From Aldrovandia affinis (Eukaryota > Chordata > Actinopteri > Notacanthiformes > Halosauridae): DNA of 64,000 nt. This document shows, one piece after another, positions 4,280 to 58,281 of this stretch. Numbering within the stretch: position 1 is the first letter of the stretch; each line of letters starts with the position of its first letter. Both the position numbers and the translations under genes were made by a program. Below the pieces are notes generated by a model. The model made no database searches, was not told the DNA's origin, and was given only the letters and a program-made list of their open reading frames with translations. The DNA lies in the NCBI GenBank assembly GCA_029706075.1, contig JAINUG010000048.1:2660501-2724500 (forward strand), read 5' to 3'.

Positions 4280-5030
4280 TGGTCAGTGAGACCAAAGTTG
4301 AGCTTTTTGGCCATTTGGCTTTAGTGTCAAAGAAGGGCACCTATGTTGGACATAACCTATACCTACAGTGAAATATGATGATGGATCTTGGATGTTTTGG
4401 GGCTGTTTTACATCTACTGGTCCTGGGGATCTTTTTAAGGTCAATGCAATCATGAACTCCAGCAAGTACCATGACATTTTGGCCAAAAATCTCTGTCAGG
4501 AAGCTGAAACGTGGCTGCCAATGGATCTTTTAGCAAGACAATGATCCTAAGCACACCTCAAAATCAAACAAGGAATGGTTAACTTACCACAACATTACTT
4601 TTTTTTGTTGCAATGGCCATCTCAGTCTCCATACTTGACCCTGATCAAAAATGTGTAGTTTGAATTGAAGAGGGCAGTCCATAAACATAGACCAAAGGAT
4701 CTGAAGGATCTTGAAAGATTCTGTATGGAGGAATTGTCAAAGATCCCCCCAACATGTTCACCAATCTCATAAAACACTATAGAAGACAACATGTTAATAG
4801 TTTTATTTTTGTTGGATTTTTATTTAAAATAATTATTAGGGGTGTGATTAATTGGGACACATATATTTTGGGGGGAAGAAATTACTTGTTAAACAAAATC
4901 TTTTTTCTGAGCAATTGTATCAGTTTGTAATTTTTTAGCATACAATATAGATCAGTAGCTGTATTGTGTATTTTATACAGCCTTTTCTGCTCATCTTTTT
5001 CAAGGATGTGAATAATTTTGTAATATATAT
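4280..5030 (+). pseudogene. Degenerate Tc1-like transposase remnant
   Basis: Plus-strand translation across several frames gives Tc1-family fragments: GSWMFWGCF near 4385, a corrupted QQDNDPKHT region near 4530 and a corrupted DLNPIENVW region near 4640. The family uses a DD34E triad to cut and paste at TA. The second acidic position falls beside a stop and the glutamate region is altered, so it cannot be active. Terminal repeats are not clear. The right side ends at a TA-rich tract where further Tc1-type elements begin. Confidence 0.65.
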
Positions 5031-5031
5031 A

Positions 5032-5233
5032 CACTACCGGTCAAAAGTTTTAGAACACCCCCATTTTCCAGTTTTTACTGAAATTTTCCATTTTTGGTAA
5101 CCTAAAATTTTTTTATACCTCTGCCAGTTTACCGCTTACCTTTGTACCATTTTAGGTTATTCACTGGACTTGAACTGCTTAAATTTCAGTAAAAACTGGA
5201 AAATGGGGGTGTTCTAAAAACCTTTGACCGGTA

Positions 5234-5236
<3 letters not shown>
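5032..5236. mobile_element. Tc1-type MITE, 205 bp, almost wholly inverted repeat
   Basis: It starts CACTACCGGTCAAAAG after a TA and ends as the near-perfect inverse, CCGGTAGTG. The arms include TTTTAGAACACCCCCATTTT and its complement and cover most of the element, so it would fold into one long hairpin. There is no coding sequence. The right flank is TG rather than TA, a small decay of the target duplication. Confidence 0.85.
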
Positions 5237-5274
<38 letters not shown>

Positions 5275-26354: not shown

Positions 26355-27742
26355 CTATAGGGTGCCAAATGCACAAGACATTTATTGTGCCATGCTTTTT
26401 CCCCCCACATTCCACCAAATTCTCTTTTTATCCCACATTTCACTTATTCCTGTATTTATGAGGTTTGAAATGTCAGGTCTTAATATTAAATATGCTTCAT
26501 TTAGTTTCAAACATTTACACATTTTATACATTTAGTAAATGTTTCATATATTTAGTCAATGTTTAATGTAAAATGTATTTTAGCTAATGAATGCCATCTG
26601 CCTTTCTGCTCTCTTGTTATTGTGCAGATGAGGATAGCTACCATCTTAAAAGACAGAAGGAAACTTTATTTAAATTGCACATAAATCAACAAGAATAAAA
26701 TTATCTCAAATATTAGATTAGCATCTAAACAGATATATATATATATGCACAATCAACATTAACCCTTTAATGCGTATGCTCCGCCTTGCGGATTGAGTTT
26801 CACTGCACATGCCTGAAATAATCAATTCCAACATTCTACACAGATTCTAAATTCCATCATTTTTTATATATTTGAATTTTTTACTATGCATTTAATAAAT
26901 TATTATTAGGCCTAATAATAATAATCCTCATTATTATTATACACCTTGTCCTTATTGGTTAAAAAAAAGACCATGCACTCTAAAGTTATGGGTCACTTCC
27001 TGTTAACACTATGGGGTGGGAGCCACAACAATGAATGTCCTGTATAATTAGCCTACAGAGCCATGTCCACATAACACCTGTAGAATGTTTTGTCAAAATC
27101 GGATAATACACAAAAAGGTTATGGGTCACTTTCTATTAACACATTTTCTAAAGATAATCAATTTGGTTGTTTGACTAAATCCTTAGCAGCCTGCTCAGTG
27201 GTGAGTATATTCTTTGAAGTAGAACAACATAGTTGCAGTAGCATAGCAGGTATCAAAGCATTGTGTGTTGGAAGACTTGTCAGTACACAGGTCAAGATAA
27301 TGGTCTAGGTGCTCGTGTGAATTTCCTGTCTTTTTCGGCTTTTGCCAACCATTATCTCCCACTTCTCTCACCTGGGTTTAATTGCTTATAAATTTAGGAA
27401 ACATTTCCAACATTTAGAACATGTATGACACATTTGAATGTTTCGTATATAAATATAATATATATTTGTTAAATTTATGAAACGAAATGTTTGAAACATT
27501 TTCTAAATGTTGAAAACCACTAAATATTAAAACATTTAGCTGAAATATTTACTTTTGTCTGAAATAATTCAAATTTTTATTTAGCCATATTTAATATTTA
27601 GACCTGCCATTTCAAACCTCATCAATTTAAGAAAAAGTGTTTTTTTGTTGTTCATTGTGGATATAAAGTGTTATTTTTGTTAAATGTGTGAAGAAATGCT
27701 TGGTAAATAAATGTAGTTTATGACACATTCGGCGCCCTATAG
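26355..27742. mobile_element. Non-autonomous DNA element with long, imperfect inverted termini, 1.39 kb
   Basis: The outer ends are CTATAGGGTGCCAAATG and, inverted, CTATAGGGCGCCGAATG. Further in, both ends carry ATGAGGTTTGAAATG, CAGGTCT and AATATTAAATATG words in inverted order (near 26457 and 27620), so the arms span roughly 200 bp. The interior has a direct duplication (TTATGGGTCACTTCCTG near 26985 and a close copy near 27119). I could not fix a target duplication, and the superfamily is unassigned. Confidence 0.7.
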
Positions 27743-28258: not shown

Positions 28259-28388
28259 ATAAACACACACACAGCAGGTATAATAAGTATTCATTGGCAT
28301 TTTTCACATTATATTTTCTTACTTCATGGAATCAAAATAGATTTAATTGGGATTTCTTGCCACTGATAAACACAATATACTCTATAAT
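28259..28388 (-). mobile_element. Left piece of a Tc1-like element split by the LTR array
   Basis: The segment from GCAGGTATAATAAGTATTC to GATAAACACAATATACTC joins in sense to 35263 onwards (GTCAAATAAAAAACAGC) once the LTR array and one ATAAT are removed. The joined order matches the noncoding end of Tc1-like fish elements as I remember them. The outer terminus lies in the AT/AC tract at 28250-28275. Confidence 0.7.
28384..28388. repeat. 5-bp target-site duplication, left copy (ATAAT)
   Basis: ATAAT stands immediately before TGTCACGG at 28389. The identical ATAAT follows the last LTR at 35258-35262. Five-base duplications are usual for Ty3/gypsy-type integration. Confidence 0.85.
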
Positions 28389-28412
28389 TGTCACGGTTGT
28401 TCCCCAGATTCA

Positions 28413-28426
28413 CCACCAGATGGCGG
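28413..28426 (+). promoter_or_regulatory. CTCF-like core motif in LTR1
   Basis: CCACCAGATGGCGG fits the CTCF core as commonly written (CCASYAGRKGGCRS). It lies 24 bp inside the LTR, upstream of the CCAAT and TATA boxes. The same word recurs at the same offset in LTR2 (30742-30755) and LTR3 (33078-33091). Binding is inferred only. Confidence 0.45.
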
Positions 28427-28468
28427 TGTGCGCCTTTTTTCCTTAACGCGCTCAGCTGGTTTGAATGA

Positions 28469-28491
28469 CCAATTATCTCTCCCTATAAATA
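28469..28491 (+). promoter_or_regulatory. CCAAT and TATA boxes of LTR1 promoter
   Basis: CCAAT at 28469-28473 and TATAAATA at 28484-28491 form a compact polymerase II promoter. Equivalents lie at 30795/30810 in LTR2 and 33134/33149 in LTR3, so all three copies keep the promoter. Confidence 0.6.
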
Positions 28492-29120
28492 CCCGCACCT
28501 AACTTCAATCAGGGCGAAATCGTAAGCCATCTTTACGATTTTTAGCCGGTAAGGTAAGAATGTCTTTTTCAAGACGTTCACAAAGACTTCACAAAGACTT
28601 TTCTAAAGAAACGACTATCTCCTTTTCAACCCCTTCTAAAGACGCAAGAACTTAGTTAGTTGTCCCTTTTAAGGAAACCTTATCTCTCTAAATGGGGTTT
28701 TAGGTTGGTTTCCGTTCGTCAGTCTGTTTGACTGTTTTGGGTTGCTAACTTGTTCTTTGGCTCTTCTAGCCGTTTACGTTTTTGGGGAGTACTCTGGTCC
28801 TAACGAAAGAACTCATTTTAGTTTCCTGCTTTAAGAAACCTTGTTCGCTAAAATGCGCTTTTCTTTTGGTTTCGTTTTTAGCCAGCCAGTTCGACTGGTT
28901 CGTGGGTTACTACTGGTTCTTTTGGCTAACTGCCTTTTACGTTTTGGACATAAAGAGTTTTGAGTTAAGGTCGGTTCATTCACCATTTAATTGTACCCAC
29001 TTATGGAACTTCTCTCGTGTGTAAATTGTACCCTCTGGGTCGCTGAGGTTGTTTCCGGGTTTCAATTTTGTTATGGCGGCTTTGCTAGCCTCCTGCGTTT
29101 TTCTTACGCTCTGTGCCATT

Positions 29121-29610
29121 TTATAACCAATAGTTCCTACATGTGAAACTCACTCGTGGTTAGGAGTGTTTCTCTGGTTTCATTTGTTCAGTCGTCTAGG
29201 CTGTTTATGGGTTCTATTTTATAACCAATAGTTCCTACATGTGAAACTCACTCGTGGTTAGGAGTGTTCTCTGGTTTCATTTGTTCAGTCGTCTAGGCTG
29301 TTTATGGGTTCTATTTATAACCAATAGTTCCTACATGTGAAACTCACTCGTGGTTAGGAGTGTTCCTCTGGTTTCATTTGTTCAGTCGTCTAGGCTGTTT
29401 ATGGGTTCTATTTTATAACCTTTAGTGCCTACAATTGAAACTCACTCGTGGTTAGGAGTGTTCCTCTAGTTTCTTTTGTTCAGTCGTCTAGGCTGTTTAT
29501 GGGTTCTATTTCCTAACCTTATTTCTTACATTGAAACTCACTCGTGGTTAGGAGTGTTTCACAGTTTCTTTTGTTCAGTCTGATAGGCTGTTTACTGGTT
29601 ACTTATTGTT
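29121..29610 (+). repeat. Five tandem 97-bp units inside LTR1
   Basis: Units begin near 29121, 29219, 29315, 29413 and 29509. Each carries TTATAACC, GAAACTCACTCGTGG, TTAGGAGTGTT and a CAGTCGTCTAGGCTG palindrome. The first three are almost identical; the last two diverge. The same block is at about 31440-31925 in LTR2 and 33790-34270 in LTR3, so the amplification predates the LTR duplications. Confidence 0.9.
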
Positions 29611-30577
29611 CTGGCGGTTCTCCAGCCCTCCTGCGTTTACATACGCTCAGAACTTTTGTTAACCAAATTCTGTGTCACTTATGTATTAGAAACCTTGTGC
29701 GCTAAAAATGCGCTTTTATTTTGGTTTCATTCTTGTTCAGCAGATCTCCTGGTATAGGGTTTACTCTGTGGTTCTGTCGGTCCCCCTTAACCGTTTCGAG
29801 TTTTGGCGGACGTCAGTTGTGGGTCTTGTTGTTCCCCGCTGTCTGTCATCCCCACCTAACTGTCTCTTAGGCTCTTACGTTTTCACGCTAAGACCTTTTC
29901 GCTCCATTTAATTGTACCCACTATTGTACTTCTCTCGTGTGTAAATTGTACCCTCCTGGTCGCTGAGGTTGTCTTCGGGTTTCAATGTTGTTTTGGTGGC
30001 TTTGCAGTTTTTGCGGATGCCAGATAGCAGGTTAACTTTGGGCCCTGCTGTCTGACAGTCCTTCCTACCGTTCGAGTTTTGGACGTTCAGAACTAATGGG
30101 TCAGGTTTTACCATTTGATCTTGTGGGCTCTCCTAGCTCTTCCGTTTATTGACGCCGCAGTACTTTTGGTTATGTCCAGTCATAATAATTTACTTACTTG
30201 TGTCTTACTAAAAACCCTTTGCTCGCTATTGGCGTTTTCATTTTGTTTCGTGGGTTCAGTCGTTTAGACTGTTTTCAGGTGATACCTGGTTCTGTTGGCT
30301 TCCCTAGCCTTTCACATTTTGGGAGGTTCAGAATATTTGATTCAGGTTGCTTTTGTTCAGTTCGATTGGACTGGTTCAGGTTACTAGCTTGTTCGTTTGG
30401 CTATCATTGCCTTTACGTTTTTAGACACTTGGTTAACACCCGTGGGTGTGGTTTGCGTTCATCCCTTATTATCTTCCCTATTCTCTGTTTTACAGAGCTA
30501 GTGGTTAGACGGGTTCCGCTCTAACTTTTTGATCCCCTAGGTTCTGCGAGTGGCGCCTATCACCACCAACCCTTACA

Positions 30578-30717
30578 GTACGATTTCGCCATATCTTGGC
30601 GGCCAGCGGGTCCCTACGGTTTCGCTTAACTAGCTTATCTGTTTAAACAAAAAAATTCTCTTCCTAAACACCGTGTGGGTTCGTAGGGTCGTCAAGAGTC
30701 GCCTAAGGGGGGGGTCC
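30578..30717 (+). other. Internal segment 1 of LTR element (140 bp)
   Basis: The segment between LTR1 and LTR2 has no coding capacity. It includes GGTCCCTACGGTTTCGC and a closing purine run before LTR2. A primer-binding site should lie just after 30577; a TGGCGGCC word at 30597 is a candidate but is altered in the second spacer, so I leave it open. Confidence 0.6.
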
Positions 30718-32913
30718 TGTCACGGTTGTTCCCCAGATTCACCACCAGATGGCGGTGCGCCTTTTTCCTTAACGCGCTCAGCTGGTTTGAATGACCAATT
30801 ATCTCTCCCTATAAATACCCGCACCTAACTTCAATCAGGCGAAATCGTAAGCCATCTTTACGATTTTTAGCCGGTAAGGTAAGAATGTCTTTTTCAAGAC
30901 GTTCACAAAGACTTCACAAAGACTTTTCTAAAGAAACGACTATCTCCTTTTCAACCCCTTCTAAAGACGCAAGAACTTAGTTAGTTGTCCCTTTTAAGGA
31001 AACCTTATCTCTAAATGGGGGTTTTCGGTTGGTTTCCGTCGTCAGTCTGTTTGACTGTTTTGGGTTGCTAACTTGTTCTTTTGGCTCTTCTAGCCGTTCA
31101 CGTTTTGGGGAGTACTCTGGTCCTAACGAAAGAACTCATTTTAGTTTCCTGCTTTAAGAAACCTTGTTCGCTAAAATGCGCTTTTCTTTTGGTTCGCTTT
31201 TAGCCAGCCAGTTCGACTGGTTCGTGGGTTACTACTGGTTCTTTTGGCTAACTGCCTTTTACGTTTTGGACATAAAGAGTTTTGAGTTAAGGTCGGTTCA
31301 TTCACCATTTAATTGTACCCACTTATGGAACTTCTCTCGTGTGTAAATTGTACCCTCTGGGTCGCTGAGGTTGTTTCCGGGTTTCAATTTTGTTATGGCG
31401 GCTTTGCTAGCCTCCTGCGTTTTCTTACGCTCTGTGCCATTTTATAACCAATAGTTCCTACATGTGAAACTCACTCGTGGTTAGGAGTGTTTCTCTGGTT
31501 TCATTTGTTCAGTCGTCTAGGCTGTTTATGGGTTCTATTTTATAACCAATAGTTCCTACATGTGAAACTCACTCGTGGTTAGGAGTGTTCTCTGGTTTCA
31601 TTTGTTCAGTCGTCTAGGCTGTTTATGGGTTCTATTTTATAACCAATAGTTCCTACATGTGAAACTCACTCGTGGTTAGGAGTGTTCCTCTGGTTTCATT
31701 TGTTCAGTCGTCTAGGCTGTTTATGGGTTCTATTTTATAACCTTTAGTGCCTACAATTGAAACTCACTCGTGGTTAGGAGTGTTCCTCTAGTTTCTTTTG
31801 TTCAGTCGTCTAGGCTGTTTATGGGTTCTATTTCCTAACCTTATTTCTTACATTGAAACTCACTCGTGGTTAGGAGTGTTTCACAGTTTCTTTTGTTCAG
31901 TCTGATAGGCTGTTTACTGGTTACTTATTGTTCTGGCGGTTCTCCTAGCCCTCCTGCGTTTACATACGCTCAGAACTTTTGTTAACCAAATTCTGTGTCA
32001 CTTATGTATTAGAAACCTTGTGCGCTAAAAATGCGCTTTTATTTTGGTTTCATTCTTGTTCAGCAGATCTCCTGGTATAGGGTTTACTCTGTGGTTCTGT
32101 CGGTCCCCCTTAACCGTTTCGAGTTTTGGCGGACGTCAGTTGTGGGTCTTGTTGTTCCCCGCTGTCTGTCATCCCCACCTAACTGTCTCTTAGGCTCTTA
32201 CGTTTTCATACGCTAAGACCTTTTCGCCTCCATTTAATTGTACCCACTATTGTACTTCTCTCGTGTGTAAATTGTACCCTCCTGGTCGCTGAGGTTGTCT
32301 TCGGGTTTCAATGTTGTTTTGGTGGCTTTGCAGTTTTTGCGGATGCCAGATAGCAGGTTAACTTTGGGCCCTGCTGTCTGACGGTCCTTCCTACCGCTTT
32401 CGAGTTTTAGGACGTTCAGAACTAATGGGTCAGGTTTTACCATTTGATCTTGTGGGCTCTCCTAGCTCTTCCGTTTACGGACGCCGCAGTACTTTGGTTA
32501 TGTCCAGTCATAATAATTTACTTACTTGTGTCTTACTAAAAAAACCCTTTGCTCGCTATTAAAGCGTTTTCATTTTGTTTTCGTGGGTTCAGTCGTTTAG
32601 ACTGTTTTCAGGTGATACCTGGTTCTGTTGGCTTCCCTAGCCTTTCACATTTTGGGAGGTTCAGAATATTTGATTCAGGTTGCTTTTGTTCAGTTCGATT
32701 GGACTGGTTCAGGTTACTAGCTTGTTCGTTTGGCTATCATTGCCTTTACGTTTTTAGACACTTGGAGTTAACACCCGGTGGGTGTGGTTTGCGTTCATCC
32801 CTTATTATCTTCCCTATTCTCTGTTTTACAGAGCTAGTGGTTAGACGGGTTCCGTCTAACTTTTTGATCCCCTAGGGTTCTGCGAGTGGCGCCTATCACC
32901 ACCAACCCTTACA
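30718..32913 (+). repeat. LTR copy 2, 2196 bp
   Basis: Same boundaries and modules as LTR1. Differences are mostly one-base gains or losses in homopolymers. The CTCF-like core is at 30742-30755, CCAAT at 30795 and TATAAATA at 30810. This copy is internal, flanked by the two 140-bp spacers and not by target duplications. Confidence 0.85.
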
Positions 32914-33053
32914 GTACGATTTCATATCTTAGCGTCAGCGGTCCCTACGGTTTCGCTAACTAGCTTATCTGTTTAAACAAAAAAAAAATTCTCTTCCTAA
33001 ACACCCGTGTGGGTTCGTAGGGTCGTCAAGAGTCGCCCCTAAGGGGGGGGTCC
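32914..33053 (+). other. Internal segment 2 of LTR element (140 bp)
   Basis: Same organisation as internal segment 1, with small differences around 32926-32944 and in the A-run at 32980. The terminal purine run AAGGGGGGGG precedes TCC and LTR3. Confidence 0.6.
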
Positions 33054-35257
33054 TGTCACGGTTGTTCCCCAGATTCACCACCAGATGGCGGTGTGCGCCT
33101 TTTTTCCTTAACGCGCTCAGCTGGTTTGAATGACCAATTATCTCTCCCTATAAATACCCGCACCTAACTTCAATCAGGGCGAAATCGTAAGCCATCTTTA
33201 CGATTTTTAGCCGGTAAGGTAAGAATGTCTTTTTTTTTTTTCAAGACGTTCACAAAGACTTCACAAAGACTTTTCTAAAGAAACGACTATCTCCTTTTCA
33301 ACCCCTTCTAAAGACGCAAGAACTTAGTTAGTTGTCCCTTTTAAGGAAACCTTATCTCTCTAAATGGGGGTTTTCGGTTGGTTTCCGTTCGTCAGTCTGT
33401 TTGACTGTTTTGGGTTGCTAACTTGTTCTTTTGGCTCTTCTAGCCGTTTACGTTTTTGGGGAGTACTCTGGTCCTAACGAAAGAACTCATTTTAGTTTCC
33501 TGCTTTAAGAAACCTTGTTCGCTAAAATGCGCTTTTCTTTTGGTTTCGTTTTAGCCAGCCGGTTCGACTGGTTCGTGGGTTACTACTGGTTCTTTTGGCT
33601 AACTGCCTTTTACGTTTTGGACATAAAGAGTTTTGAGTTAAGGTCGGTTCATTCACCATTTAATTGTACCCACTTATGGAACTTCTCTCGTGTGTAAATT
33701 GTACCCTCTGGGTCGCTGAGGTTGTTTCCGGGTTTCAATTTTGTTATGGCGGCTTTGCTAGCCTCCTGCGTTCTTACGCTCTGTGCCATTTTATAACCAA
33801 TAGTTCTACATGTGAAACTCACTTCGTGGTTAGGAGTGTTTCTCTGGTTTCATTTGTTCAGTCGTCTAGGCTGTTTATGGGTTCTATTTTATAACCAATA
33901 GTTCCTACATGTGAAACTCACTCGTGGTTAGGAGTGTTCTCTGGTTTCATTTGTTCAGTCGTCTAGGCTGTTTATGGGTTCTATTTTATAACCAATAGTT
34001 CCTACATGTGAAACTCACTCGTGGTTAGGAGTGTTCCTCTGGTTTCATTTGTTCAGTCGTCTAGGCTGTTTATGGGTTCTATTTTATAACCTTTAGTGCC
34101 TACAATTGAAACTCACTCGTGGTTAGGAGTGTTCCTCTAGTTTCTTTTGTTCAGTCGTCTAGGCTGTTTATGGGTTCTATTTCTAACCTTATTTCTTACA
34201 TTGAAACTCACTCGTGGTTAGGAGTGTTTCACAGTTTCTTTTGTTCAGTCTGATAGGCTGTTTACTGGTTACTTATTGTTCTGGCGGTTCTCCTAGCCCT
34301 CCTGCGTTTACATACGCTCAGAACTTTGTTAACCAAATTCTGTGTCACTTATGTATTAGAAACCTTGTGCGCTAAAAATGCGCTTTATTTTGGTTTCATT
34401 CTTGTTCAGCAGATCTCCTGGTATAGGGTTTACTCTGTGGTTCTGTCGGTCCCCTTAACCGTTTCGAGTTTTGGCGGACGTCAGTTGTGGGTCTTGTTGT
34501 TCCCGCTGTCTGTCATCCCCACCTAACTGTCTCTTAGGCTCTTACGTTTTCATACGCTAAGACCTTTTCGCCTCCATTTAATTGTACCCACTATTGTACT
34601 TCTCTCGTGTGTAAATTGTACCCTCCTGGTCGCTGAGGTTGTCTTCGGGTTTCAATGTTGTTTTGGTGGCTTTGCAGTTTTTGCGGATGCCAGATAGCAG
34701 GTTAACTTTTGGGCCCTGCTGTCTGACGGTCCTTCCTACCGTTTCGAGTTTTCGGACGTTCAGAACTAATGGGTCAGGTTTTACCATTTGATCTTGTGGG
34801 CTCTCCTAGCTCTTCGCGTTTACGGACGCGCAGTACTTTTGGTTATGTCCAGTCATAATAATTTACTTACTTGTGTCTTACTAAAAAAACCCTTTGCTCG
34901 CTATTAAGCGTTTTCATTTTGTTTTCGTGGGTTCAGTCGTTTAGACTGTTTTCAGGTGATACCTGGTTCTGTTGGCTTCCCTAGCCTTTCACATTTTGGG
35001 AGGTTCAGAATATTTGATTCAGGTTGCTTTTGTTCAGTTCGATTGGACTGGTTCAGGTTACTAGCTTGTTCGTTTGGCTATCATTGCCTTTACGTTTTTA
35101 GACACTTGGAGTTAACACCCGGTGGGTGTGGTTTGCGTTCATCCCTTATTATCTTCCCTATTCTCTGTTTTACAGAGCTAGTGGTTAGACGGGTTCCGTC
35201 TAACTTTTTGATCCCCTAGGGTTCTGCGAGTGGCGCCTATCACCACCAACCCTTACA
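33054..35257 (+). repeat. LTR copy 3, 2204 bp
   Basis: Same boundaries and modules. A T-run of about 13 bases has replaced a short one near 33229-33241. The CTCF-like core is at 33078-33091, CCAAT at 33134 and TATAAATA at 33149. The copy ends CCTTACA at 35257, directly followed by the right target duplication. Confidence 0.85.
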
Positions 35258-36240
35258 ATAATGTCAAATAAAAAACAGCAACTCTAAAGCTTTTTCTGAA
35301 TTAATTTCACATAAAAAACAAACAATAAATAATTCCATAAGTATTCACCCCCCTTTGACTTAATATTTTGTAGAGGCACCTTTAGCTGCATTTACAGCTG
35401 TGAGTCTATTTAGCTAAGTCTCTATCAGATTTGCACATCTTCACATTGCCCATTCTCCTGTACAAAATTGTTCAAGCTCCACCAAGTTGGATAAGGACTG
35501 GTGGTGAACAGCAATTTTAAAATCTTTCCACAGATTCTCAATGGGATTGAGGTCTGGGCTTTGACTGAGCCACTCCAGGACCTTTGTTTGGTTTGTAAAC
35601 CACTCCAATGTGGCTTTTGCTGTGTGCTTTCAGTCATTGTCCTGTTGGAATATAAATCTTCTCCCAAGTCTCTTGCAGACTGCAGCAGGTTTCCTCCTGT
35701 ATCTTGCTCCATCCATTTTGCCAATTATTTTGCCATCTACAGTATATCTATGTTTTCCAGTCCCTGAAGCAGAGACGCATCCCAATGGCATTAGGCTCCC
35801 CCCATCATGTTTCATGGTAGGAATAGTGTTCTTGGGTTGATGAGCAGTGTTAGGCTTGTGCCAAACATAGCGCCTAACATTGATGCCAAAAAGTTCAGAC
35901 CATAGATTCTTCCTCCACTTGGTTTGAGAGTCTCCCATATGCCTTCTGGCAAACTGAAGCAGGATTTCATGTGACTTTTCTTCTTCAACAATGGTTTTCA
36001 TTTTGCCACCCTCCAATAAAGTGCAAATTTAGTGAACCGCCAGGGCTATTGTTTTCCATGGACAGTTTCTCCCATCCTTGCCATGGAAGACTGTAACTTT
36101 GTCAGAGTTGTCATAAACCTCATGGTGGCTTCCTTAACAAGTGCTCTTCTAGCACGGATGCTCAGTTTTGGAAGACGGCCTGTTCTAAGCAAATTCACAG
36201 TTGTGCCATATTCTCACCATTTCTTTATGGACTTAACGGT
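35258..36240 (-). pseudogene. Right part of the split Tc1-like element, with broken transposase
   Basis: After ATAAT (35258-35262) the Tc1-like element resumes. Minus-strand frames give [18 protein letters not shown], a damaged first catalytic region ([15 protein letters not shown], aspartate missing), FIFQQDND with the second aspartate, and, in another frame, the C-terminal part down to about 35350. Several stops and shifts make it inactive. The terminus on this side fades into AT repeats near 36240. Confidence 0.8.
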
Positions 36241-36430: not shown

Positions 36431-37061
36431 TAGCAGTTGGCATAGGCATATATTTGGGCACCCCTTTGGGTCCTTATTGAGACATACTCAATGCAATCCA
36501 AATTACATTTGAATTGGATTTGATTTAATTAGCAAATTATAATATATTTTATTAAGAACATTGACGTGAATATAACCAGTGACATGTTGTGCTATGAGCT
36601 ATGTTGTGCAGTGAAATTTTCCAGCAAAACGAGTGCTGCACGTTGCCACGTTTTTTAAACTACATATGGGGTGTGGTTAGTGCAAAAACTACTGCATATA
36701 GCTACGTTTGACAATGCAACTGGTTTTGTTACGTACCACCCACGTGTGTTTTACATATTTCTGAGCTTAACCTAACCCTAACCCTTTAACTGGTGTGTTT
36801 TCTGCTCAATCATAGCCCCGTACCGTGGCTCCGTCTGACACTGTACTACACATGGTCACTTCAGTTTGTATTCTTCCTATACCAAAGAGGTTGGTTTGTG
36901 AAGTTGCATTATTGCTCGATGGTAAGACAAAAACAGTTATAAGAACTGGTAAAGGCAATTTATATGTGTACTTCAGTCTTGTTCGTGGTTTTCCTTGGTA
37001 TTATTTCAAAAGAGATGGAGTCGATCATTCAAATTAAACTTCTTAAGTAACTATATATATA
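36431..37061. other. Gene-free stretch
   Basis: Nothing recognised apart from short AT repeats at 37052-37060. Open frames are short and not protein-like. Confidence 0.5.
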
Positions 37062-37205
37062 TATGCCATTTAGCAGACGCTTTTATCCAAAGCGACTAAC
37101 AGTAGTGAATGCATACATTGTTTCTGTATATGTGGTCCCAGTGGGAATCGAACCCACAACCTAAGTGTTGCCAACGCCATGCTCTACCTACTGAGCTACA
37201 TAGAA
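37062..37205 (-). mobile_element. tRNA-derived SINE with L2-type tail
   Basis: On the minus strand the head reads TAGCTCAGTAGGTAGAGC (A box) and GGTTCGATTCC (B box), as in a real tRNA. The other end is GGATAAAAGCGTCTGCTAAA, the 3' tail shared with L2-clade fish LINEs. Only about 145 bp separates them. Flanking AT repeats obscure any duplication. The tRNA-like part lacks a proper acceptor stem, so it is a SINE and not a functional tRNA gene. Confidence 0.8.
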
Positions 37206-37819
37206 CTACCAACTAACTGGTTTTTGGCCGTTTCACAACATTGTTAGGGTAGCTGCAACGTGCCATGGAGGAAACGCCGTGGGAATGGGCATCAGACCAA
37301 CGCACCATTCTGTCCTGCCCTAACAGCCAGGGCTCCGCAGAGGAAACAAACATGGCCTGCAGCCGTAACAGCGCCAGGGAAATACAGTACACTCACCTCT
37401 TGTTAATATTTAATTCCTACTCTCCCCGGGCCTCTAGGTTTAATGATAGCCAGTGGGCACAATTATGGCCCATTGGGGAAAACCCTGTTCTGAGAGGCAT
37501 TCACCCCTCACCCTCCAACATAACTGTCCAAGGACCCCACCTCTGTCACTGCTATGTGGCCTTTTCATTTCATATTAAACCTTATTTGTCTGTAACAGCT
37601 TGAATAATTGCTTTGAATTGTAATTGTAGTGTTAAACAAAAATAACTTCGGGATACATATTTATGTGCAAGTAGTTATAAGAGATAATGTAGCACTAATT
37701 ATATGGATTATGGCAATAATAGTCTTAGCGCAAAAGATTGCTCATAACAAGCATATCAGGTTTATTAGTTTTTTGTTTTCCATGAAAACCACTTTACAAA
37801 CATTTGTAGTGATTTCTGA

Positions 37820-38423: not shown

Positions 38424-38965
38424 AACTCCTCCTTATATTACACATAAACCCCTCCCCTTACAATCTGAATCATTATTACAGTATACATAAGCTCTTCTGA
38501 TTATGATCTGAATCATTATTATACTACACATAAACCCCTCCCTTTACGATCTGAATCATTATTACAGTGCATACAAACCCCTCCCCTTATGATCTGAATC
38601 ATTATTACAGTATACATAAGCCCTTCTCCTTACGATCTGAATCATTATTATAGTATACATAAGCTCTTCTCCTTACGATCTGAATCATTATTGCAGTATA
38701 CATAAGCCTTTCTCCTTACAATCTAAATCATTATTACACTACACATAAACACCTCCCTTTACGATCTGAATCATTATTACACTACACATAAACCCCTCCA
38801 TTTACGATCTGAATCATTATTACAGTACATATAAACCCCTCCCCTTACAATCTGAATCATTATTACAGTATACATAAGCCCTTCTCCTTACGATCTGAAT
38901 CATTATTACAGTATACCTAAGCTCTTCTCCTTACAGTCTGAATCATTATTACACTACACATTTGG
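38424..38965. repeat. 43-bp minisatellite, about 12 units, with higher-order pattern
   Basis: The anchor CTGAATCATTATTA recurs at 38465, 38508, 38551, 38594, 38637, 38680, 38723 (CTAAATC variant), 38766, 38809, 38852, 38895 and 38938, exactly 43 bp apart without one indel. Two unit types are interleaved: TACACATAAACCCCTCC and GTATACATAAGCYCTTCT. Units 2-5 repeat as units 8-11, suggesting a 6-unit (258-bp) duplication. Confidence 0.95.
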
Positions 38966-47300: not shown

Positions 47301-50300
47301 AGTAGTCCACCATTTCCTCTCGGCTGATCTTGCCATCCCTGTGACAGAGAGGGAGGGAGGGAGTGTGTGAGAGAGAAAGAGGGGGAAAGAGAGGGAGGGA
47401 GGGAGTGAGGGAGAGATTAGTCTTGTACTTTTCTCCCAAAAATCTAAACTTTAAAGGGGGTGGCACATGAAAATTGACCATTTTAAGTTGTTATGTTCAA
47501 TCAAAATACATGAAAAAAATAAAATAAAAAATAAAAAATAATAACCCCTCTGAGAAAAATAGTTTTAAAAATCCAAATATTTCAGTAATTAGTTACGTCA
47601 TTAAGACCAAAATTTGAATATGCATCCATGATTTGTCCTGTGCTACAGACTCATTACCATAACAGGTCTTGCTGTGCCTGGGAAATGTGCTATAAATAGT
47701 AGAGCAATAACATAAGAGTCTTTGCACTGCTTACAGTGTAAAGTATACATGTTAACATTATTTCACATGTTGGTTGTACTGTAAATGTTTTTCATTTAAG
47801 AAATGAAATATGAATGGGAGGGGAAACCCCCACACTAACGGGACAATGGTGAGCTGTCAAAAAGTTTGCTACACATCAAAGCAGGTTTTTGATAACTTTT
47901 TCAAAATATGTAAGACTCACTGTATTGCTCTAGGCATTCAGATTTTATGTAATTTTATGTGTAAAAAAGTCATGAGCCACCCCCTTTAAAAAACTTGCTC
48001 CGTAATTATTATGCTTATGTTCTTTTAAAAACATACTGTGCCAGCTTTTTCTGATGGTAAAGTGCTTCAGTATTTGAATTGCAAGGAGAGGAAGGTAGAG
48101 AGACATTTGTTAATTAATGTGAAAGCGGAGAGACATTGGACCAATTCAAATCTTGTGAATTAACAAAGGTCTCTGTCCCTTCCTCTCCTTGCAATTCAAA
48201 TGTATATATTTTTCTATTTATATTTTCTTATATATGCTTTTTCAATCGAATCGTATTCTCAAGCCACACCCGCTGCAACACCCCCATCAATTCAGGAGAG
48301 CACAGACATGTACCCTCCTCCATAGCATGTGATATGAGCTGTCACTTCTATTCACACCGCAGTTCACAATTCAAGCTTACACAGACACAAGACACTTCAT
48401 GTGCAGCTTAGTACAGGCGGATTGTGGGTGCCTAATTGACCAGCAGGAGTCACTGTGTAATAATCACACACACTTTTGCCATATCTCAGCATCCTGTGGC
48501 TTTTGCTTAGATCCTGATAGACCTTAATCAAATACTACTCTCAAGCAAAATTGGACACATTCTAATTTTGCTCCTCCCACAAAATACTACCTTCTTAATG
48601 TTTATTTCCCACAGGCATAACTTTACATTTACATTTAGCATTTAGCAATACTGAATGTTATCTGCCATATTTCTGCTCACTTCTGGATCACCTTGGATCA
48701 CCTCAGTAAATTCCAAACTGTTTGCTAAACCCCCAAGTTTTGTATCATCTGTAAATTTAACTGTTTTACTATTAGCAACCCTATTAAGATCATTTATGTA
48801 AATAATCAGACGTCCCAGCACTGATACCTGTGGGACTCCACTGCCCACAGCCCCGAAGTTAGATACAACCCCTCCTACCATTACTCATTGCAATCTACCT
48901 AATAACCAATTATAAACCCATTCTGAAATAACTTCTGTAATTCCTACTGAATTCATTTTGACAATGAGGCTCTCATGTGGTACCTTGTCAAATGCTTTTT
49001 GAAAGTCCAAAACATATAATATCATAAGCCTGGTTCAAGTCAAAACATTTCCTAGCTTCCTCAATGAAGTCCAGGAGGTTAGTAAGGCATGACCTCCCCC
49101 TGGAAAAAAATGTTGGCTAGCCCGTTTTTCAGGAATAATTCCAACGTCTCTATTGTCTCTAATAATACACTCCAGTACTTTGCATGAGATGCAAGTTAAA
49201 CTGACAGGCCTGATATTTCTCCAGTGTTTAAGTATTGCATACAAATATCTGTCAGTGGTTTGTAAATAATCTCCCCAAATTCCTTGAGTAATTTGGGATG
49301 GATGCCACCGGGGCCTGCTGCCTTATTTGTCTTAAGCTTTCTTAGTTCTTATAGAACTTCTATATCCATTATCTCAATGGATGTACTTTTAGACATATTT
49401 ATAACCTCTTGTCTGGCAAAGCTCGCAACAAAGTTGCTGTTTAGGGTATCAGCAATATCCTTATTATAAAGCAAAGCTCCTTCCTTGTTCTTAATCTCTT
49501 CTTCCTTGTTCCTTGCACTTAGCCTCTTTCTTAACTTTCTACAGCAATATTGAAAAAATGCTTAGGATTACTTTTTGCATAATGGGATATTTTAATTTAA
49601 ATGTGGCTTTTAGCTGCCCTTATTCCCAATACATATTGTTTTACTAATATATTGATGGTGATTTAAAGTTTTATGTTAGTTGCATTACAGTTTAATGTCC
49701 CATAGCCATATACTAAAGTATTGTAATGCTTAGTATGCACATTTTCCAAGGGAGATTCATATAGATAGCATTACTAAATATTATCAGCTGGACATACATA
49801 TTTAACTGCCTGAAGCCATTCAAATGAATTACCTTCCTTAAGGGCACTACTCCACGTGGGTATCAAACTAGCAACTTCTGGCTATCAGCCCAATTCTTCA
49901 ACCATTATAACACACCAGTACCTGTTGGGATAGCTCTATGCATTTTATGGTCCTGTAATTATTCTTAAATTACATCAAATAAAATATATTTTACATGGAA
50001 GATAATTGAGGCATTTTAACACGTAATACCACTTGTGTTCAGCATCCAAAACTTGTGTTGAGTGCTGAAACTTAACCAAAGGCATTTGACTGTTAAGGCT
50101 ACTAGATTCAGGAGAAAGTTTTATAAAAATTCTCACTTGCCCAACATGCCAACTGTTTGACATGTTTCCCTGCACTATGTTGGCTTGTGGAAAGTGTGTC
50201 CTTATGCCAGGTAGTGGCAAAGCCTTGATTCATACTCACTGGTTTTTGTCCAGTTCACCAAACTTGCTGAGATACGGGAAGTTGTTCCTTATGATTTCAA

Positions 50301-56300: not shown

Positions 56301-58281
56301 CTTCACTGTCACAGGATACATATATATGTCATTTAGGATGTAATAATGAAATAGGATACATCAGGAATGACTGGATTCCCATTTGGGTGGAACGTCTTCT
56401 CCCTTGACTCATGATCTGCCTTTTGTTTGCTGTTCCATTGCTGGAGTCTTGAAAAAACATCAGCTTGGAGTTGCCATGCAGAATCGGGGAGCTCTCTCTA
56501 GCTGCTTTGAGAATAGCTTGTCTGTCATTATATCGAAGGAGCTTAAATATCAGGGTACATTGCTCGGCTTGGGGGGCTTTGTTCCTATTGTAAATGCAAT
56601 GAGCCCATTTGATCTCTATCACATTACCCTGTAGAGTCGGCATGCATTTGGGAAGATGAGTTTGGAGAAACGTAATTGCATCAACGCCTTCTTCCCCTTC
56701 TTTCCGCCCAACCAAACTCAGGTTGTTTTGCCGTTGCTTGTCCTCGTACCAGTTCAGCTTCTCCTGTAGTTCCTCGATCCGCAGTTTTGAAGCTGTTGAT
56801 TCTTTTTTCACGTCTCTTACCGCGGCTTGAATGTTGTCAAATCTGGATGTGACGGACTTCACGTAATTTTCGAGAGAGCCGAGTCTGACTGTGAAATTTT
56901 GAAGTTCTTCTCTGACAATTTAGTTTTATTGATGATGCCGTTGTTGTCTTTTAACTTCTTTTTGGCTGGAGAAGCTGGAATTTCGCATTTCAGAGACATC
57001 TCAAATGATTGACAAATTATTTAATAATAAAGCTAGGTTGTTATAACCACCGGAGATAGCTTAACGGATCAAATATATCAGTTGGATTGCAGGAGCTGTC
57101 GCCTCAAGTGTCCATTACCGTCAGTAGGCCACGTGGTCTCCATTGATGGTTATTTTTATGAATCATCCCTAGTGTCTATAAATGTCTCTAACCATAGTTT
57201 AAAGTCACCAGCTATTTACAATGCTTGAATTCTAAGAATTTCCTTAAAACACAAATCAGGTTTCACCATCCTTTCACCAAAAATGAAGAAATAATGGACT
57301 TTTCCACACAATAAAGGACCATCATGGCCAGCAGTTTAGCCTTTAACTTTGCATAAATTGGGGGAGAAATGTGTTTGGATTGAATAAGGTACACTTAGGA
57401 TTACGCTAACAGTGTGTGGGCTGATATCCCTTTCCACAGTGATATTAAACTCCAACACCTTTGAAAATGCCTGGATGTGCACATGTTCCTGTTTGCTGCC
57501 ACTCCGACTGACCGTGAGCAAGTTGAGCAGGTCGGTGTTAGCATCAATGCTGGGGGGCGTGGTCTGGATGAGTGCCAGCTCCTGCAGGATGGCATAAAGC
57601 TGCTGGGTCTTCACCAGGTTGACTCGTGTTTTCTCCAGGTCAGCCCAGTCAGGCAGCGCCACATGCACAGCGATCAGGTCCTTGAGGTGAACTCCCAAAA
57701 TGGGAAAGCGGAAGCCCGTACACTCAGAGAAGCGACGTCGGTACTGGCTGTAGTTCCCGCAGGACGTCACCAACTCCGTCAGGTTGTTGAACACCTGAGC
57801 AGCAGCAGAACGGAGGAAGGGTTAGAGCACTGGACTGGAAATGAGTTACAGAATCTGTGAGGTAAAAATGTTTCATGAATCATGTGGGAACGGGTGTCTG
57901 CTGAGTAAATAAACATGGTCACATATTAAAGCCATATATATGTCAGGAGACACTAAAAGAGCATGGAACCATCGAACCATAGATGTAACACAAGTGACAG
58001 GATTATGATAATGATAAAGATGATGGTGGTAAGTTAGTGATGGTGACATTGATTGTGATAATATATGTGAGGAAGATGATGATGGTGATGAGGATCGCAA
58101 AAATGATGATGCCGATGAAGATGATGAGAACTGCAAAAGGAGTCCTGAATCCTGCCACTGATACCTTGTTTGTCTCGCAGCTGATATGTGACTGTGTGTC
58201 TTTGAGTCTGGAGATGGAGCTGTTACTAAGGCCTCCCACCACTGCCATCAGCGTGTTAAAGTTCTGCAGTTGCAGCAGTTT
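44330..58281 (-). CDS. rasgrp2: rasgrp2 (RAS guanyl-releasing protein 2, CalDAG-GEFI), 3' half, nine exons
   Basis: The family loads GTP onto Rap1 (and some Ras proteins) in response to calcium and diacylglycerol; RASGRP2 is the platelet and leukocyte integrin-activation exchange factor. Exons at 58281-58165, 57794-57513, 51894-51814, 50970-50851, 50355-50240, 47338-47197, 46136-46100, 45015-44857 and 44388-44330 join in phase to 1113 nt with a terminal TAA. Domains in order: C-terminal half of RasGEF, linker, two EF hands ([24 protein letters not shown]), complete C1 zinc finger, tail. The linker [20 protein letters not shown] and the end [15 protein letters not shown] are what I remember as specific to RASGRP2 rather than RASGRP1, 3 or 4. 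The N-terminal REM domain and the first part of RasGEF must lie beyond 64000. No internal stops. Confidence 0.93.
44440..44790 (+). mobile_element. SINE-like repeat in last rasgrp2 intron
   Basis: Blocks such as GGTCTCATCACGCACCAGCG, GGCTTGACGTCACATGCTTC and GGAGGAGAGCACATGC lead to a tail TTGGGAGAAAATAGAGG. The tail resembles that of SINE family A, suggesting the same LINE partner. No clear tRNA boxes or duplications are visible. The right end comes within about 70 bp of the splice donor at 44856. Confidence 0.5.
44857..45015 (-). CDS. rasgrp2: rasgrp2 exon: end of C1 domain and tail
   Basis: The exon starts after ACATTAG and finishes an Ala codon. It encodes [17 protein letters not shown], the last zinc ligands (C, C, H, C, C) of the C1 finger, then [13 protein letters not shown] and a Pro/Ser-rich tail with RSFSFPPP. 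The donor G|GTAGCC is weak but gives the only phase that joins to the last exon. Confidence 0.88.
45025..45175. repeat. GA-rich tract (CT-rich in the rasgrp2 sense)
   Basis: Imperfect GAGAGA/GGGAGG repeats begin about 10 bp from the acceptor at 45016. In the transcript this is an unusually long polypyrimidine tract of about 150 nt. Confidence 0.85.
46100..46136 (-). CDS. rasgrp2: rasgrp2 micro-exon (37 nt) inside the C1 domain
   Basis: Between CTCACAG-type acceptor sequence (ACAG at 46140-46137) and donor GTAAGG it encodes [12 protein letters not shown] plus one base. It supplies the central loop and third cysteine of the C1 finger. It is only 12 codons long, so it is easily missed by gene finders. 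Confidence 0.9.
46200..46440. repeat. GA-rich tract upstream of the micro-exon
   Basis: AGAGAGAGAATGAGAG-like imperfect repeats. On the rasgrp2 sense strand it is a CT-rich run ending about 65 nt before the 37-nt exon. The leucine/serine frames here are artefacts. Confidence 0.85.
47197..47338 (-). CDS. rasgrp2: rasgrp2 exon: second EF hand and start of C1
   Basis: Acceptor CACAG precedes 47338 and donor GTGAGT follows 47197. The exon reads [20 protein letters not shown] (second EF-hand loop and exit helix), then GFIHTF, beginning the C1 finger (H-x12-C-x2-C: H, CEHC), ending CAGF. All calcium and zinc ligands are present. Confidence 0.95.
47341..47420. repeat. GA-rich tract adjoining the EF2/C1 exon
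   Basis: GGGAGGGAGG and GAGAGAAAGA repeats touch the acceptor at 47339-47343, giving a long CT-rich tract in the transcript. Confidence 0.85.
47455..47985. mobile_element. TTAA-flanked MITE, 531 bp
   Basis: It starts AGGGGGTGGCACATGA and ends TCATGAGCCACCCCCT, with TTAA at 47451-47454 and 47986-47989. TTAA duplications occur in piggyBac and Kolobok elements. The inverted match is about 20 bp and the interior is AT-rich and non-coding. It sits in the rasgrp2 intron between 50240 and 47338. Confidence 0.8.
48072..48201. repeat. 130-bp intronic hairpin (foldback)
   Basis: The arms ATTTGAATTGCAAGGAGAGG... and their complement pair over about 44 bp with four mismatches around a loop of about 40 bases. 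It is either a small foldback MITE or, if expressed with the rasgrp2 intron, a possible small-RNA precursor. Confidence 0.8.
48620..49560 (-). pseudogene. LINE reverse-transcriptase remnant
   Basis: Minus-strand frames give, in order, [49 protein letters not shown] and YINDLNR...[10 protein letters not shown]. These are reverse transcriptase blocks of a CR1/Rex1-type non-LTR retrotransposon, including a decayed FADD-like catalytic box (FTDD). Many stops and shifts. It lies within the rasgrp2 intron, same strand. Confidence 0.85.
49790..49935 (-). mobile_element. SINE remnant with L2-type organisation
   Basis: The plus-strand blocks CTTAAGGGCACTACTCCACG, GGGTATCAAACTAGCAACTT and CTTCAACCATTATAACACACCA are a diverged antisense tRNA-like SINE. 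No duplications seen. Confidence 0.55.
50240..50355 (-). CDS. rasgrp2: rasgrp2 exon: first EF hand
   Basis: The acceptor GTGTAG precedes 50355. The exon reads [19 protein letters not shown], a canonical EF-hand loop with D1, D3, D5 and E12, then [19 protein letters not shown], entering the second loop. Donor CA|GTGAGT. It ends two bases into a Gln codon that the next exon completes. Confidence 0.95.
50851..50970 (-). CDS. rasgrp2: rasgrp2 exon: linker before EF hands
   Basis: Acceptor TACCAG, donor GTAAGA, 40 whole codons. It reads [20 protein letters not shown], a Pro-rich linker, then [18 protein letters not shown], the helix that leads into the first EF hand. Corresponds to the autoinhibitory linker region of the family. 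Confidence 0.93.
51814..51894 (-). CDS. rasgrp2: rasgrp2 exon: linker after RasGEF
   Basis: Acceptor CACCAG, donor GTGAGT, 27 codons: [20 protein letters not shown] then PRSSKPA. This stretch is strongly diagnostic of RASGRP2. It joins directly to LLNLLT from the 57.5-kb exon across a 5.6-kb intron. Confidence 0.95.
51990..52520 (+). pseudogene. Tc1-like transposase remnant in rasgrp2 intron
   Basis: Plus-strand fragments include [15 protein letters not shown] sequence in mixed frames near 52150 (first catalytic aspartate), then [20 protein letters not shown] and [17 protein letters not shown], a Tc1 core. The rest is lost; the right side reaches GGTGTAGACTTTAAAG, a common Tc1 end motif. Opposite strand to rasgrp2. 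Confidence 0.75.
52521..54349. other. Intronic stretch without recognised elements
   Basis: Part of the 5.6-kb rasgrp2 intron. An (AC)n-type repeat occupies 52970-52993. Open frames at 53246-53449 and 53620-53949 have no recognisable domain and might be old transposon sequence. Confidence 0.45.
54350..54560. repeat. Dispersed repeat family R1, copy 2
   Basis: CTACAGGAGAGTAGCTTG, TCTCTCACTGACAACAACTGG and CCCCTGGTGGGAAGAGGCC occur in the same order as in the copies at 3885 and 63500. Confidence 0.6.
54830..57003 (-). pseudogene. L1-like retrotransposon fragment: ORF1 plus endonuclease, no reverse transcriptase
   Basis: ORF1 starts [17 protein letters not shown] near 57003, changes frame near 56940, then gives a coiled-coil region and an L1 ORF1 RNA-binding region ([36 protein letters not shown]) to 56329. 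ORF2 begins near 55800 with [20 protein letters not shown], then [28 protein letters not shown] and [15 protein letters not shown], the AP endonuclease fold. A little of the following linker persists to 54830, where it ends before the polymerase. Same strand as rasgrp2. Confidence 0.85.
57513..57794 (-). CDS. rasgrp2: rasgrp2 exon: C-terminal RasGEF core
   Basis: Acceptor GCTCAG, donor ACG|GTCAGT, 94 codons. It reads [20 protein letters not shown] and [20 protein letters not shown], then an ALPDW block, ending [19 protein letters not shown] is the hallmark of the CDC25-type RasGEF catalytic domain. Confidence 0.96.
58165..58281 (-). CDS. rasgrp2: rasgrp2 exon: RasGEF helical hairpin region
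   Basis: Acceptor CCGCAG, donor AAG|GTATCA, 39 codons: [20 protein letters not shown] then [25 protein letters not shown] with SSISRL is strongly conserved in RASGRP proteins. This is the most 5' exon in the window; no exon was found from 58282 to 64000. Confidence 0.96.

Follow-up and report, generated by a model that had tools for sequence, protein, structure and literature searches.

Array structure

A 64-kb stretch of DNA from the halosaurid fish Aldrovandia affinis (contig JAINUG010000048.1, positions 2,660,501 to 2,724,500), hereafter the window, contains an array of long terminal repeats (LTRs) at positions 28389-35257. Three LTRs alternate with two 140-bp spacers in a tandem unit of 2.33 kb, and a single ATAAT duplication encloses the whole. 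The LTR bounds bear out the original prediction, made from the letters of the window, of three LTRs of about 2.2 kb, two 140-bp spacers and one duplication. Very probably, the array is a trimeric non-autonomous Ty3/Gypsy-type LTR retrotransposon from a Tf1/sushi-like chromovirus whose gag-bearing copies are many in this genome. Its parts, in window positions, are as follows.

28384-28388, no strand: target-site duplication ATAAT, left
28389-30577, plus: LTR1, 2189 bp, TGTC...TACA
28484-28491, plus: TATA box TATAAATA of LTR1, found in 44 of 44 family LTRs read
28513-28524, plus: GGCGAAATCGTA in LTR1, presumed R start, complementary to the primer site
29118-29594, plus: 98-bp tandem repeat in LTR1, 4.9 copies
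30578-30717, plus: internal region 1, 140 bp, with primer site, gag-start remnant, pol-end remnant and polypurine tract
30579-30590, plus: putative self-priming primer site TACGATTTCGCC
30705-30717, plus: polypurine tract AAGGGGGGGGTCC preceding LTR2
30718-32913, plus: LTR2, 2196 bp
30838-30849, plus: GGCGAAATCGTA in LTR2
31439-31916, plus: 98-bp tandem repeat in LTR2
32914-33053, plus: internal region 2, 140 bp, primer site without GCC (9 of 12 nucleotides left)
33041-33053, plus: polypurine tract preceding LTR3
33054-35257, plus: LTR3, 2204 bp
33178-33189, plus: GGCGAAATCGTA in LTR3
33788-34264, plus: 98-bp tandem repeat in LTR3
35258-35262, no strand: target-site duplication ATAAT, right

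The array has the defining features of an LTR retrotransposon, namely direct LTRs with TG..CA ends, a target-site duplication, a primer site after the 5' LTR and a polypurine tract before the 3' LTR. All three LTRs start with TGTC and end with TACA, their termini being TGTCACGG at the start and CCCTTACA at the end. These ends (TGTCACG ... CCTTACA) fit the motif TGTYANR / CNTNACA described for sushi LTRs (PMC3601003; here and below, PMC numbers refer to excerpts of the papers).

Clean substitutions, defined as those with none but gap-free columns within 6 columns around them, number 2 between LTR1 and LTR2, 3 between LTR1 and LTR3 and 2 between LTR2 and LTR3, while the corresponding indel events number 25, 29 and 23. 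The indels occur in blocks, are mostly short, lie in homopolymer and CG contexts and look like long-read assembly noise. No further copy of the array unit is present elsewhere in the 64-kb window. The longest ATG frame overlapping the array encodes 72 amino acids and no long open frame exists; a coding role of the LTR was rejected on this ground and because the period of the 98-bp repeat is not divisible by three. Within 28384-35262, neither ARAGORN nor the Rfam gathering thresholds returned a match for tRNA or 5S content. Short hairpins in the LTR (69) show no clear excess over shuffled sequence (mean 52.8, standard deviation 9.1, maximum 78), and of 11 folding windows of 200 nucleotides two, 1-200 and 801-1000, have a sense-strand z below -3. 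The sequence CCACCAGATGGCGG, which presumably matches the CTCF core consensus, occurs at 28413-28427, 30742-30756 and 33078-33092, the only three places in the window, and is present in 44 of 44 family LTRs.

A family of gutted elements in the same genome

The genome assembly searched comprises 1,222,302,279 bases in 2576 contigs, the window belonging to contig C2000. A probe spanning the spacer gave 419 first-look candidates, and the best 40 of these 419 were scored, 2 being the window spacers and 38 lying elsewhere, two of them at one locus; 20 loci outside the window were fetched. All 20 follow the LTR-spacer-LTR plan, with LTRs of 2270-2608 bp and internal regions of 140-152 bp, although a spacer-spanning probe ranks spacer-less copies low, and the share of gutted forms among all related insertions is not derivable from this sample. 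Recurrence of the plan at every fetched locus rules out chance as its source in the window. Most relatives are longer (internal regions of 143-152 bp, LTRs near 2.48 kb), which makes the window copy slightly short. Two-LTR copies of the family measure about 4.7-5.4 kb overall; the window element would come to about 4.5 kb in that form, nearly all of it LTR.

Exact 5-bp target duplications flank 14 of the 20 loci and 6-bp duplications two more (L025 and L026), giving 16 of 20, and none is present at L011, L012, L014 and L028. The single LTR-140 bp-LTR copies with 5-bp duplications that the original prediction looked for are therefore present. Its view of a non-autonomous lineage is upheld by the short internal region of all 20 copies together with the gag-pol-type partner described below, and two outcomes that would have contradicted it are excluded: the internal regions are short at 20 of 20 loci rather than filled by gag-pol throughout, and other TG/CA copies with duplications occur at 16.

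The LTR pairs of the 19 two-LTR copies are nearly identical, with a median divergence of 0.08% clean substitutions (range 0-0.25%), pointing to recent mobility of the family. Altogether these pairs hold 42 clean substitutions versus 272 indel events. An alignment with costlier gaps gave 0-0.89% isolated substitutions, indels having forced false mismatches there. In 19 of 21 elements every LTR has the same number of 98-bp markers, and this number ranges from 0 to 5 from one element to another, a pattern that indicates inheritance through retrotransposition. A probe from the LTR start gave 969 first-look candidates, an approximate count in which solo LTRs and partner LTRs may be included. At one further locus (C302) LTR starts at 2018934 and 2023168 are 4.2 kb apart versus the usual ca. 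2.6 kb, perhaps through an insertion inside the copy.

The gene-bearing partner

A partner of the gutted family exists in the same genome, to judge from domain and motif matches: a chromodomain Ty3/Gypsy element with gag and pol that shares the primer site and the polypurine tract of the gutted family and resembles it in its LTR ends. An autonomous partner with gag-pol and the same LTR ends is what the original prediction had looked for. A search for the primer site without a following A returned 19 places (control 0), 15 with T, 3 with C and one, L033, rejected as a primer site when the match proved to be the inner arm of the LTR (see below). Some of these loci (e.g. L030, L031 and L034) combine a giant LTR with an internal region of about 250 bp, and at others an LTR of 590-605 bp is followed, after the primer site, by gag or pol sequence. 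Five partner LTRs were read, all 590-605 bp long.

One partner lies on C1447. Its 5' part (L036) combines a 595-bp LTR and the shared primer site with an open stretch of 332 amino acids that includes DUF4939 and Retrotrans_gag, and its 3' part (L048) has Integrase_H2C2, SH3_Tf2-1 and Chromo domains, the polypurine tract AAGGGGGGGGTCC and a 595-bp LTR, with CATTT duplicated on both outer sides. The separate locus L035 has a reverse transcriptase (RVT_1, 4e-37). An integrase core is present at L046 (1.3e-9), that of L048 falling under the Pfam cut-off. Placement of the partner in its clade rests on Pfam and Protein Data Bank matches. For the reverse transcriptase, the top matches among solved structures are 4ol8, which we take to be Ty3, and 7q5b (Ty3-G Gag-Pol), and the sole solved relative of gag is PEG10, a host gene derived from sushi.

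At L059 the primer site is followed by ATG AAC ACG GCG TCA GCG. The junction CAGTACGATTTCGCCATGAA, in which ATGAA follows the primer site, occurs at 355 places of the genome (control 0), versus 48 for the 5' pattern of the gutted form and 8 for that of the 250-bp form, all three being exact-match counts and thus lower bounds. From position 1503 of L046 the primer site runs straight into sequence of the integrase, a further form of the partner with an internal deletion. The genome is rich in sushi-like elements generally.

Descent of the gutted form and its LTR

The first part of the 147-bp internal region aligns with the start of the partner gag and its last 50-55 nucleotides with the end of pol, and by this alignment the spacer is shown to be a gag start joined to a pol end. 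The original prediction had left the lineage with no more than its LTR, a primer site and a polypurine tract; the gag and pol remnants refine that description. More of gag survives in a 252-bp form, which matches the 147-bp form along its whole length apart from a single deletion of some 105 nucleotides; judged from that alignment, it is an intermediate.

The ends of the giant LTR also align to the partner LTR, positions 1-179 at 70% and 2059-2204 at 67%, while its middle is a field of degenerate repeats that includes the 98-bp unit in 4.9 copies. Similarity of this middle to the partner middle is above all 200 shuffles for three of five partner LTRs (L035, L040 and L046). The giant LTR resembles a partner LTR in which degenerate repeats have enlarged the middle. 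Three points go beyond the original prediction, namely the existence of the partner with the origin of the spacer from it, the seemingly expanded partner-like LTR and the probable self-priming kind of primer site treated next.

Primer site and probable self-priming

The spacer starts with G-TACGATTTCGCC, of which 12 nucleotides are complementary to GGCGAAATCGTA at LTR position 125. In the three window LTRs GGCGAAATCGTA sits 28-29 bp past the TATA box TATAAATA. Complementarity of this length was equalled in 0 of 5000 shuffles of LTR positions 91-190 and 0 of 1000 shuffles of the whole LTR, and antisense matches of LTR1 20-mers to LTR1 reach 10 at most. Exact GGCGAAATCGTA is found in 43 of 44 family LTRs and CGAAATCGTAAGCC in all 44, and the primer site GTACGATTTCGCC stands unchanged in 19 of the 23 internal regions, window spacer 2 being among the four exceptions. 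Among the five partner LTRs the complementarity extends over 12 nucleotides in two and 11 in three. A cofold of the 5' piece of the LTR with the primer-site piece yields the 12-bp duplex.

In self-primed elements of the Tf1/sushi type the 5' end of the mRNA acts as primer (PMC4600332, PMC6317226). The primer site described here is likely of this self-priming type, with the RNA start presumed from the position of GGCGAAATCGTA. A tRNA primer was rejected by eye, the LTR end having no following TGG and a self-complementary site fitting instead.

Past the presumed RNA start, at 28532-28541 and at the same place in LTR2 and LTR3, lies a near-copy of the primer site, TTTACGATTT, referred to as the inner arm, which reads TTACGATTTAGCC in three of the five partner LTRs. 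This arm could keep the primer in a local hairpin.

Proposed mechanism

The protein-less element probably borrows the proteins of the related gene-bearing element in the same genome. Transcription would start about 29 bp past the TATA box of the 5' LTR, and the transcript would cover some 2 kb of R (repeat) and U5 (unique 5') sequence, cross the short internal region and continue into the LTR that follows. The primer site, which lies immediately inside the LTR, would be paired by the first 12 nucleotides of the RNA, and the RNase H of the partner reverse transcriptase would release the paired 5' end as primer. Partner gag, reverse transcriptase and integrase would then package, copy and insert the element. 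Tandem amplification of the middle may have made the LTR about fourfold longer than that of the partner, and the tandem form may have arisen at or soon after insertion, by exchange between LTRs or as multimeric cDNA.

Several observations weigh against this account. The partner domains come in pieces from a number of loci, where frames are broken, rather than from one complete copy. Only 9 of the 12 primer-site nucleotides remain in window spacer 2, and the minimum-energy fold of the whole 2146-nucleotide leader pairs its 5' end elsewhere, without the primer-site duplex. A second stem of the cofold (GGUAAGG with CCUUAC) is lost in four of five partner LTRs. For L036 and L032 the similarity of the LTR middles is not above all 200 shuffles, and the tRNA alternative was weighed by eye, with no tRNA library compared with the primer site.

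Tandem arrays and their origin

Arrays occur beyond the window. An exact 22-mer from the pol end gave 63 matches, falling into 59 same-strand clusters, four of which hold two copies 2.47-2.72 kb apart (C1001, C1707, C2078 and C2420); the window counts as single in this clustering, its first spacer missing the 22-mer pattern. A further pair, on C2333, came from the search with the gutted-form 5' pattern. One duplication surrounds the window array (ATAAT), the array L027 on C1707 (CATGT) and that on C2420 (GGAAAT), and likewise the array on C1001 (ACAGG), which was seen at its ends only; the left end on C2078 is scrambled. Among the 100 matches listed for the partner junction are three same-strand pairs with a spacing of 5.0-6.0 kb (C1, C224 and C336), near the 5247-bp partner unit calculated from the C1447 coordinates, and hence the partner may form arrays too. 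At L056 (C2389:2955100-2955700) two LTRs stand head to tail without an internal region and with about 20 nucleotides missing at the joint, which resembles a two-LTR junction and may be an assembly fault.

The clean sites that differ between LTRs in the window, L027 and C2420 are too few to tell crossover from insertion of a multimer. Growth in place, in which a single LTR-internal-LTR insertion gained a unit by unequal exchange between its 5' LTR and the 3' LTR of the other chromatid, is an even call. It accords with four arrays (window, L027, C2420 and C1001) that each lie within a single duplication and with array LTRs that are shared and untruncated, and it has a precedent in the Wukong elements of maize, where 15 of 89 intact elements have at least three LTRs (PMC4528315). 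In the window, alignment column 509 is A in LTR1 and LTR2 and G in LTR3 and 12 other elements, which fits a hybrid middle LTR, yet one shared site is weak evidence. Moreover, L027 offers just one clean LTR difference, and at C2420 each clean difference is confined to one LTR, with none in the internal regions, so that no mosaic middle LTR is seen.

Insertion of a ready-made multimer, formed by read-through RNA, template switching or cDNA joining, is a serious possibility, if somewhat short of probable. The single duplication suits it equally, as does the near identity of all LTRs, which makes the array as young as its insertion, and multimers of this kind have been proposed in plants (PMC11899658, PMC7215508). 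Read-through would be favoured by the lack of AATAAA in 44 of 44 family LTRs read, ATTAAA being present in 3 of 44; a clear AATAAA has been described for sushi LTRs (PMC3601003). However, AATAAA is absent, by eye, from the five partner LTRs too and its lack is hence not special to arrays, and the expected pattern of identical outer LTRs with an odd middle LTR is not seen, the differences being too few.

That the assembler expanded a single LTR-internal-LTR copy is very improbable. The repeats are poorly polished, as the block-wise indels of the two-LTR copies indicate, L027 lies on a contig of only 10,284 bp, and C2078 and C2389 appear scrambled or shortened. The window array, on the other hand, lies inside a 5.9-Mb contig that far exceeds its contig-end neighbours in length, its LTRs have private substitutions, and arrays are found at several loci, where the duplications differ. 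The 2.33-kb unit and the repetitive LTR would suit a satellite or processed tandem repeat without retrotransposition. This reading can be dismissed given the target duplications, the TG/CA ends, the primer site and polypurine tract and a gag-pol relative whose ends are the same, and it is refuted by the single copies with duplications.

Comparison with known elements

With Tf1, Tj1 and sushi-ichi the family shares LTR ends of the sushi type, 5-bp duplications, a primer site whose complement is the presumed start of the mRNA and a partner with chromodomain, SH3_Tf2-1 and PEG10-like gag. In contrast to them it has no coding region, and its LTRs measure 2.2-2.6 kb versus 590-605 bp in the partner. 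Since gag-pol with integrase and chromodomain is absent from the element and present in the partner, it is by these features a derivative, not a full member, of the Tf1/sushi chromoviruses.

Among non-autonomous LTR elements, terminal-repeat retrotransposons in miniature (TRIMs), including Wukong in maize and LTR-11_DR/Helenus in zebrafish, likewise have LTRs, a primer site, a polypurine tract and no coding region, and both Wukong (PMC4528315) and LTR-11_DR (PMC10886601) are reported to form tandem arrays. TRIMs are described as shorter than 1000 bp (PMC10886601). At about 4.5 kb for the window element in two-LTR form and 4.7-5.4 kb for its relatives, the present family lies well outside that size. 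It resembles large retrotransposon derivatives (LARDs) in being large and non-coding with a coding partner. LARDs owe their size to a long non-coding internal region, unlike the 140-152 bp found at all 20 fetched loci. The original placement of the family in neither class thus holds, these being the usual classes of non-autonomous LTR elements.

The LTRs of Cassandra in plants contain 5S-derived sequence; the window array differs from Cassandra and Helenus (TRIMp3) in having no 5S or tRNA-derived sequence by ARAGORN and Rfam. Cassandra does form LTR-internal-LTR-internal-LTR arrays (PMC7215508), and tandem LTR retrotransposons of rice and other plants show one duplication around shared-LTR arrays (PMC11899658). 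Those hosts are plants, and the rice case, as far as the excerpt shows, is not gutted with giant LTRs (PMC11899658).

Tandem LTR arrays, fish TRIMs (LTR-11_DR, PMC10886601) and self-priming in vertebrate sushi elements are already known. In the excerpts surveyed, subscription journals and Repbase lying outside their scope, no animal LTR element with such large LTRs and such a short internal region was found, and the family may already be catalogued. As the inverse of TRIM and LARD, it might stand for a distinct vertebrate class of LTR parasite in which the internal region is lost and R-U5 is a roughly fourfold repeat array under selection, a speculative and rather unlikely proposal. If true, the amplified R-U5 would be selected, e.g. 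for attracting partner gag or letting the 5' primer reach a site 2 kb away, and a self-primed element would be able to live as LTR alone.

With the partner, the 252-bp intermediate and the 147-bp form in one genome, loss of gag-pol and growth of the LTR would be directly traceable stepwise. The family is a small natural system for testing the requirements of a self-primed element, and its young tandem LTR arrays are a vertebrate example where population data could separate crossover from multimer insertion.

Other features of the window

On the minus strand at 37060-37206, tRNA-Ala-like sequence adjoins the tail of a UnaL2 long interspersed element, constituting a short interspersed element. 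A 43-bp tandem repeat of about 12 copies lies at 38442-38961. Self-palindromic stretches at 5023-5245, 27404-27516 and 48072-48201 are perhaps small DNA transposons, and a Tc1-type transposase is among the domain matches. An exon with a RasGEF domain is located at 57336-57818 (minus strand), its gene being presumably RASGRP-like.

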